Below the pieces are notes generated by a model that ran no database searches, had not been told where the DNA came from, and was given only the letters and a program-made list of their open reading frames with translations. Positions 8,638-11,820 of a DNA stretch of 50,386 bases are shown one piece after another. Each line of letters opens with the position of its first letter. The stretch's first letter is position 1. Source of the stretch: Pseudomonadota bacterium (GTDB lineage: Bacteria; Pseudomonadota; Gammaproteobacteria; Burkholderiales; Methylophilaceae); NCBI GenBank assembly GCA_027621535.1, contig JAQCBB010000003.1:1-50386 (forward strand), given 5' to 3'. A program made the translations under genes and the position numbers.

Positions 8638-9531
8638 TTGTCCAAGACAACATATGCTATTGATTTAAAAAAATTAAAATTAACCCGAGAACGGGCCAAA
8701 CTATCCGTTCAAGATGCAGCTTCCTCTTGCAGTTTGTCTCCTCAACAAATAAATTCAATTGAAAATGATTTAGATGTTGGTTTTTTTAATGAGCATTTTA
8801 AAGAAATAGCCGTCAAAAAATATATTAAATACCTTGGCTTAACCCAATCAGAAATCCTGATTCCCGAGAAAGATACTCATAGCCAAGAAGTTGAACCCTC
8901 GAAACAGAAATTAACCCCCGAAATAAATATTCAAAGGCTTGTTAAAATTGCGATAACAAAAAAGAAAAGTACAATTATTTTTGTTCTATCAGTGGCTCTA
9001 TTGCTCATGGTTGCCCTTAAGGATCCAATTGAAACGGAAGACAATCTTCAAGAAAATGAAATTGCAGTAGATGCGTTGAGTGATAACCAAACTGATTTAT
9101 CCCTATCAGATGAGCCGATACTGATTAATGAACACGATGATCATTCTCATTCTTCATCTATTTCTATTATTGCAAACACTGAAGTAGCTCCTGTGAACAA
9201 TCCGAGCGACTGTATTGGCTTGTTAAATACTGATAATTTTCAAAATTATCAAACAAAGTATGTCCCTGAAAAACCCAATAATTATATTCACATTAAATCC
9301 TCATTGACCCAAACGCTATGTATTCAGTCAGGAAATGAAGAAGCTAAATCAATTGTAGTCACAGAATCTGAACCATTAAATTTTAAGGGGGGTGCACCAT
9401 TTTTACTACACATCAACGAGCCAGATAAAGTAGAGGTGTATTTTCAAGGCTGGAAAGTATCGCTGAATCCTAACTTTCAAGTCTTTAAGATTAACTCTTA
9501 CCAAGATCCGACTTTAACAAGCCTCGAGTAA
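8638..9531 (+). CDS. RodZ-like helix-turn-helix / single-TM protein (TTG start proposed; ORF track start 8548 lies inside the upstream gene)
   Basis: N-terminal Xre-like HTH ([30 protein letters not shown]), [19 protein letters not shown]-terminal beta-rich RodZ-type domain ([26 protein letters not shown]). Confidence 0.75.
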
Positions 9532-10758
9532 TTCCTGCCAAGATGTTGTGAAACGTTGACTCTTGTTTAATTGCTTCATCTGCCACTTTCCATCTTTTGA
9601 CTGCCAGCCACTGGTAATAATATTGTGATGATATTTACTGCGAATGGCATCCAAAGCATTGCTTAAATTGGCACGAATTATCTGTGCGGCACAATCCTGA
9701 TTCACATGTTGAGCTCTTTTTAAGTCTAGCAAAATAATACCCGCTTTATGGTATGCCGTATTATGCTGATATATTTGTGTTAACCCGGCCATTGCTAAAC
9801 GCATGAGCTGTTCATGATTATCCGTATGGATGACGTGTTTCAATCGAATCAAATATTGAATAGGCTGTTTAGCAGTAAATGGGTTATTTCTAATAAATAA
9901 GATCATTTCCTTTGTTAGTAATTCTTGCTTTCTGAGTTTAGCTGAAGCCTTCTGTACAAACGTAGTAATTGCATCTGCCATATCTGTAAAGTTATCAATT
10001 GTTTGTCCAAAACTTCTCGAGCATATGATTTGTTTTTGATCGGGTTTAAACGATTCTATCGGGTAACACTGAATTCCATTCAGTTCATAAATCATTCTTT
10101 CCATGTTGACACCAAAGAGCTGCTTCATCCATTTTGGGTTGGCTGTTTTCAACTGATATACAGAGTCAATTCCAATTGCATTCAGTCGCTTTGCTAATCG
10201 AACTCCAATACCCCACAACTCAGAAACAGGTATTTTTTTTATTAAACGATCTTGTGCGGCTAAATCAATCTCAGAAAAACACACCACCCCCTCAAACTCA
10301 GGATTTTTTTTTGCCATGTAATTTGCTAATTTGGCTAAAGTTTTAGTTTCAGCCATGCCAACACAAACCGGAAGTCCAATATCTTTGAGTATTTTAAATC
10401 GAATCAGTCGACCCTGTTGTAGACAGTTTGTACGTTTTAATTTTAAGAAACATTCGTCAATGGAATAAACTTCTTGATCTTCTGCAAGCTTTCCTAACAA
10501 CTGCATCACTCGATTACTCATGTCTGCATAGAGAGGATAATTAGACGAATAAATCTTCACTTTATGTTGACGAATAATAGATTGCGCCTTAAATAGCGGC
10601 ATTCCCATTTTAATGCCTAGCAATTTGGCCTGATTACTTCGCGAGATAATACAGCCATCATTATTACTTAAAACAACAACAGGATTTTTTTCAAGCGATC
10701 GATTAAATACACGCTCGCAACTGACATAAAAATTATTCACATCAACCAGTGCAATCAT
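9514..10758 (-). CDS. umuC: Y-family DNA polymerase V subunit UmuC
   Basis: [52 protein letters not shown] and YSIDECFL catalytic motif. Confidence 0.96.
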
Positions 10759-11339
10759 TATTTAAATTTACGTACACATCCAGTAACCACGCCCCAAATT
10801 TCAAATTCACTGTCTGACTTAATATGGATTGGTTTATATTCTTTATTTGCAGGCATTAAATATGGTCCCTCACTATTTTTAGCAAGCACCTTCACCGTGA
10901 ATTCACCATCAATAGACGCGAGCACAATGTCATTAATTGCTGCTGACTTAGAACGATCCACAATCACAATATCATTATCTAAAATTCCAGCATCAATCAT
11001 AGAATCTCCTTTAATGCGGACAAAAAAAGTGGACTCACTTTGGTCGATAAGGTATTCATTTAAATCTAATCTTTTTTCCGCATGATCATCCGCTGGTGAT
11101 GGAAACCCGGCAGGAACTTTATGGCTAAATAATGTTATTGGATTAACCCTAGTTTGCTCTGCTGGCATGATGAATGACTCTACATTTGATGTGATTTGAT
11201 GTAATAAAAAATTCTTCACTACCTTGACACGGCTATGTGGAATACGGACTACCTTTGTTGATTCGGCATAAGGTCCTGTGTCTTTTTTTCGACCAGCGCC
11301 TACTCTCAAGCCTCCGTGTGTGTGTATTATTTGACTCAT
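10758..11339 (-). CDS. umuD: UmuD-like S24 peptidase, translesion synthesis subunit, with N-terminal extension
   Basis: [24 protein letters not shown] cleavage region, Ser in GDSMIDAGI, Lys in EFTVKVLAK; overlaps umuC. Confidence 0.93.
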
Positions 11340-11370
11340 ATTTTGATTAATGTAACATTAATCAAAATAT
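11338..11370. promoter_or_regulatory. Perfect palindrome over the umuD start (candidate operator)
   Basis: ATATTTTGATTAATG-TAA-CATTAATCAAAATAT: 15-bp arms with no mismatches, 3-nt spacer. Confidence 0.75.
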
Positions 11371-11547: not shown

Positions 11548-11820
11548 ATGAATAAAGGCGAACTTATAGCAGCAATTGCGAAAGCAACAGGCTCGACAAA
11601 AGCTGACGCTGGACGTGCCTTAGACGCTACAATCGAAAACGTTACTAAGGCTTTAAAAAAGGGCGACACAGTGACTCTCATTGGTTTTGGTACATTCAAG
11701 GTTAGTAAACGAGCAGCTCGTATAGGTCGAAACCCACAAACTGGTGCTGAATTAAAAATTCCAGCGCGTAAAGTTCCATCATTCAAGGCAGGTGCAGGCT
11801 TAAAAGCAGCAGTCAACTAA
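11548..11820 (+). CDS. hupB: DNA-binding protein HU
   Basis: [66 protein letters not shown], a canonical HU sequence; GGAGGA ribosome-binding site. Confidence 0.96.

Follow-up and report, generated by a model that had tools for sequence, protein, structure and literature searches.

The umuDC operon in the window (the whole stretch of 50,386 nucleotides that was analysed) begins within a long palindrome, which raises the question of whether UmuD controls its own operon through this site. A preliminary description had proposed such a LexA-independent, self-repressing switch and had likened the palindrome to the site of the UmuDAb-type repressors of Acinetobacter. In the literature consulted, UmuD-based SOS repression is placed in Moraxellaceae alone (PMC8565304, PMC9578287), and the DNA studied here belongs to a member of the Methylophilaceae.

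Results

The palindrome and the umuDC operon

The following features of the window define the locus.

9514..10758, minus strand: umuC, catalytic subunit of polymerase V, with the domains IMS, IMS_C and DUF4113
10758..11339, minus strand: umuD, an S24-family UmuD of 193 aa with an N-terminal extension, the only S24 protein of the genome
11338..11370, no strand: palindrome, proposed UmuD operator, 33 bp, perfect, with 16-bp arms and a 1-nt centre
11343..11365, no strand: core of the proposed operator, TTGA-N5-GTWAC-N5-TCAA, conserved at 27 genus sites and present in one copy in its own genome
11349..11354, minus strand: possible extended -10, TGT-TACATT, inside the operator, as read from the sequence

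The ATG of umuC overlaps the stop codon of umuD, and the divergent neighbour of umuD is an HU gene at 11548. Positions 11338-11370 read ATATTTTGATTAATG-TAA-CATTAATCAAAATAT, and the perfect 33-bp palindrome initially described was confirmed in the sequence. The arms had been given as 15 bp; the inverted repeat is indeed error-free, and its arms are effectively 16 bp around one central base because the two outer bases of the TAA loop, T and A, pair as well. No other short-loop inverted repeat in the 50 kb searched is as long. The longest arm in dinucleotide shuffles of the window was 14, and none of the 200 shuffles reached the arm length of the palindrome. As also described, the palindrome starts inside the umuD ATG (11337-11339, minus strand), covering two of its three bases.

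The reported lack of a LexA box between umuD and HU held, with no CTG-N10-CAG in that interval; the five matches in the window lie elsewhere, and their number equals the chance expectation. A LexA box as the explanation of umuD control was rejected, there being no CTG-N10-CAG near umuD. No clear Shine-Dalgarno sequence or other ribosome-binding site was found at umuD. The TGT-TACAAT or TGT-TACATT within the genus sites resembles an extended -10, and a consensus promoter scan did not call the one at 11349..11354. The umuD mRNA may be nearly leaderless, with a transcript beginning at or near the ATG.

Conservation of the site and absence of LexA

The genome of 1.33 Mb is 99.2% complete, and UmuD is its sole S24-family protein. 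The nearest named relatives of this UmuD are from Methylophilaceae bacterium LSUCC0665, strain KB13 and BACL14-type MAGs, which we take to be OM43-type marine methylotrophs. The LexA DNA-binding domain PF01726 was found in none of the 31 genus genomes, the studied one included; the same search was positive in 19 of 61 relatives, most of them from different families within the order, as well as in E. coli. RecA is intact.

Comparison of the umuD upstream regions showed the site retained in all 28 umuD-bearing genus genomes, 27 with the exact pattern and G027 with a one-base variant; the three genus genomes without it also gave no umuD match. The pattern TTGA-N5-GTWAC-N5-TCAA had 33 matches in the 31 genomes versus 4 for a reversed control pattern. 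Across the 27 aligned loci, conservation averaged 1.83 bits per position in the site, compared with 0.53 in the preceding 60 nt and 0.70 in the following 30 nt; the first umuD ATG came 0-3 nt from the end of the site. When the studied genome was scanned for palindrome-like sites, that at umuD alone stood out; relaxed scans added only sites at chance level, and a wider regulon in this genome was rejected in favour of umuD as the one target. No such site lay upstream of recA in the seven readable genus recA loci, that of the studied genome included.

In three genus genomes (G001, which has two copies, G011 and G015), the site stands directly at the ATG of an AlpA-like gene of 72-73 aa, at the following positions.

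L190 2040-2062; L191 1987-2009; L192 2037-2059; L193 2016-2038: sites at AlpA-like genes in genomes G001, G011 and G015

Judged by this placement, the regulon can reach past umuDC, and this subclade may have a second gene under damage control. Two of the four AlpA-like gene copies contain an early stop. Decayed operator-like sequences, ATTATGTTAGATTAATTTAA at L203 (G000 C71) and ATTATGTTAGATTAATCAGA at L205 (G008), adjoin the upstream side of a distant AlpA-like paralogue, one of them in the studied genome. In G031, which belongs to another Methylophilaceae genus, a mutL-like gene is preceded at about 50 bp by a TTGATAGTTGTTACAACAATCAA site (L194 2018-2040). Two Methylophilus umuD genes (L063, L068) have two adjacent operator-like copies rather than one.

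The N-terminal domain of UmuD and its relation to UmuDAb

The protein features used below are as follows.

11196..11339, minus strand: N-terminal domain (NTD) of UmuD, residues 1-48, homologous to the UmuDAb DNA-binding domain
11106..11111, minus strand: predicted RecA-assisted self-cleavage site A77-G78, invariant in two alignments and equivalent to UmuDAb A83-G84 (PMC4807011)
11001..11003, minus strand: catalytic serine S113, invariant in two alignments
10890..10892, minus strand: catalytic lysine K150, invariant in two alignments

UmuD scored 157.4 bits against the UmuD family model NF007621 (cut-off 110) and is encoded in an operon with umuC, and its score with the LexA equivalog model was under the cut-off of that model. 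The N-terminal extension noted in the preliminary description is present and has the pattern GGxRxGAGRK...ExTKxxRxPxSxxxxxKxFL. Assignment of the NTD to a known domain was rejected, as it had no match in Pfam and no meaningful match in NCBIfam. The AlphaFold models were of low overall confidence, with a mean pLDDT of 68 for the whole protein and 72 for the NTD; at this low confidence, GGxRxxAGRK was unstructured, TKxxRxPxS was extended and residues 35-48 formed one helix. In these same low-confidence models of UmuD and of the NTD no helix-turn-helix was seen, a fold that has been suggested for UmuDAb.

UmuDAb has been shown to bind its 21-bp operator, TTGA(N4)GTWAC(N4)TCAA (PMC11332147), and mutations of its E24 and K40 derepress its targets (PMC4807011) and weaken operator binding in EMSA (PMC11332147). 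The chromosomal A. baumannii UmuDAb locus was identified by its upstream sequence as L123, a phage-labelled record; this sequence matches the published EMSA probe up to one base outside the 21-bp operator (PMC11332147). The N-terminus of L123 UmuDAb, HGGARENAGRKAQFNEPTKVIRVPESQVNFIKNWL, aligns with that of the window UmuD, and ten N-terminal residues are invariant in an alignment of OM43, Methylophilus, Nitrosomonas, Legionella and Acinetobacter proteins. The residues E26 and K42-N43 of UmuD align with E24 and K40-N41 of UmuDAb, E26 being invariant and K42 conserved in more than 90%. Moreover, A77-G78, S113 and K150 remain invariant with UmuDAb included in the alignment. The extension is thus, by alignment, a homologue of the UmuDAb DNA-binding domain.

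The likeness of the palindrome to UmuDAb sites, which the preliminary description had pointed out, holds for arms and core (PMC11332147), with a difference in spacing, which is N5 rather than N4 on each side of GTWAC; the umuD site consequently spans 23 rather than 21 bp. DdrR was not found in 61 relatives by a search run without a positive control, the divergent neighbour of umuD being HU. Because ddrR is reported to be unique to Acinetobacter (PMC7273328), the gene marks the Acinetobacter system and not the type of protein.

Co-occurrence of the domain and the operator across bacteria

A half-site model trained on this genus alone was applied to the sequences upstream of 52 NTD loci outside the training set. 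A half-site at p<0.01 versus shuffles was found at 36 of the 52, including those of G186, G286 and G365, which keep LexA; NTD-less umuD loci were positive in one case of 45, and ten of these 45 had LexA-box-like CTG-N10-CAG sites. Some of the 16 NTD loci missing the threshold did so through spacing beyond the model or uncertain starts, and the Acinetobacter sites score poorly because they are shorter and are not covered by the model.

Furthermore, G219 encodes three stand-alone NTD proteins of 90-91 aa without an S24 domain, each with two to four operator copies directly upstream.

L248 663-1004; L249 758-955; L255 26-364: stand-alone NTD proteins of G219

These proteins are the strongest evidence that the NTD, and not the protease, would be the part that reads the operator. 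A conserved C-terminal region resembling PERxKQPRWENA follows their NTD, and some of the operator copies at their genes lie in 32-bp tandem repeats.

In a tree of S24 domains, the Methylophilaceae and Nitrosomonas proteins formed one well-supported clade, and the Acinetobacter UmuDAb proteins with their plasmid relatives formed another. The distribution of the NTD on this tree, which has few columns and weak deep forks, needs several gains or losses; the count of seven changes is slightly too high since the NTD of L031 was left unlabelled. Its place among these sequences suggests that UmuDAb is a branch within a broader family and not an invention of the Moraxellaceae.

By counts read off two result lists, about 33 of 370 genomes of the class have the NTD, and PF01726 is absent from 25 of these 33 versus 105 of the other 337 (Fisher p about 1e-6, with genomes counted regardless of relatedness).

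Discussion

Computation in this study established the operator sequence and its conservation, showed that the cleavage residues are intact and that LexA is absent, and linked the NTD to the UmuDAb DNA-binding domain by homology and to the operator by co-occurrence. The absence of LexA, the conservation of the site and the homology of the NTD support the switch that had been proposed, and the palindrome is very probably the operator of the adjacent UmuD, umuDC forming a LexA-independent, autorepressed switch with a UmuDAb-like mechanism. We infer the binding and cleavage of UmuD, the dependence on RecA, and the repression and induction of the operon as follows. In undamaged cells, full-length UmuD would pair through its C-terminal S24 domain, and the dimer would hold two NTDs on the two half-sites, blocking the umuDC promoter and start codon. 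Upon DNA damage, RecA filaments would trigger self-cleavage of UmuD at A77-G78, which would remove the DNA-binding domain and derepress umuDC. The same cut would yield UmuD', the active partner of UmuC, and a single cleavage event would thereby account for the induction as well as the activation of polymerase V, independently of LexA.

The site might instead serve another regulator that is unrelated to UmuD and controls umuDC, and its position at the start of AlpA-like genes rather than umuD, seen in four copies from three other genomes of the genus, agrees with this reading. However, the site tracks the NTD and not umuD as such, as the contrast between NTD-bearing and NTD-less loci illustrates; stand-alone NTD proteins also have it, and UmuDAb, which shares the NTD, has been shown to bind an equivalent site (PMC11332147). 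We regard another regulator as very unlikely. A divergent LexA missed by PF01726, with the umuD site as a relic, is slightly less likely again: other Methylophilaceae genera do possess more S24 proteins, two of whose N-termini match the LexA domain under the Pfam cut-off, but the single S24 domain of the studied genome is that of UmuD, and no stretch of the region is better conserved than the umuD site.

A role at the level of RNA or replication, as a start-codon hairpin, a terminator or a recombination site, has the slimmest chance of all. A perfect inverted repeat over a start codon could fold in the mRNA, but most of the palindrome probably precedes the transcript start, it recurs as several separated copies at Methylophilus and stand-alone NTD genes, and the identity of its sequence is conserved beyond mere pairing. 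No terminator-like site was called, and the terminator or hairpin role was rejected on that ground.

The preferred reading, in which UmuD represses its own operon, has its closest counterpart in UmuDAb (PMC4807011, PMC7273328, PMC11332147). Both have the homologous NTD, in which the two positions probed by mutation in UmuDAb are conserved, the cleavage site, the Ser-Lys dyad, the TTGA arms and GTWAC core, the absence of LexA and a small regulon of error-prone polymerases. What would be new is that a single protein, encoded in an intact umuDC operon, serves as both repressor and polymerase subunit. Its operator has 23 bp versus 21, DdrR was not found, the protein falls in a different clade of the S24 tree, and the range of hosts is much wider, with Methylophilaceae and Nitrosomonas versus Moraxellaceae. 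With LexA of the E. coli type, the proposed switch shares an S24 self-cleaving repressor that controls umuDC through a palindromic promoter operator; unlike LexA, UmuD has no LexA winged-helix domain (PF01726), its operator is unrelated to CTGT-N8-ACAG and control of recA was not seen in the loci read. UmuD of E. coli polymerase V is similar in its S24 C-terminal domain (the PRK10276 model scoring above its cut-off), its Cys/Ala-Gly cleavage site and its operon with umuC. To our knowledge, the E. coli protein has no such NTD and is not known to repress its own operon. HdiR of Streptococcus, FddR of Francisella (PMC13148647) and the S24 repressors of Bacteroidetes (PMC8565304) are likewise non-LexA, self-cleaving S24 proteins that took over a DNA-damage regulon, but these are phage-repressor-like or Bacteroidetes-specific and are not UmuD proteins with this NTD.

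On balance, we lean towards a broader view, in which the GGxRxxAGRK...TKxxRVPxS NTD is an undescribed DNA-binding module of a non-HTH kind that reads TTGA-N4/5-GT(W)AC-N4/5-TCAA, either fused to UmuD or alone. It would mark out a second lineage of SOS repressors that work without LexA, spread over many proteobacterial families, with UmuDAb as one branch and with repressor and polymerase subunit mostly being one protein. If this is true, UmuD-type regulation extends far beyond Moraxellaceae, and streamlined marine methylotrophs, ammonia oxidisers (Nitrosomonas) and other proteobacteria govern mutagenesis by one self-cleaving protein of both functions. The poorly understood NTD of UmuDAb would then belong to a family with a broad record of sequences and would have a recognition code open to testing, and the retention of a damage-inducible polymerase by genomes without LexA would be explained.

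LexA and an NTD-bearing UmuD are both present in G186, G286, G365, G279, G084, G214, G183 and G408, and several of these genomes have the palindrome, which implies that two damage repressors act in parallel there. Additionally, an NTD-less umuD of Acinetobacter has a UmuDAb-type 21-bp site (L126, around 1999-2019), as expected for control by UmuDAb in trans.
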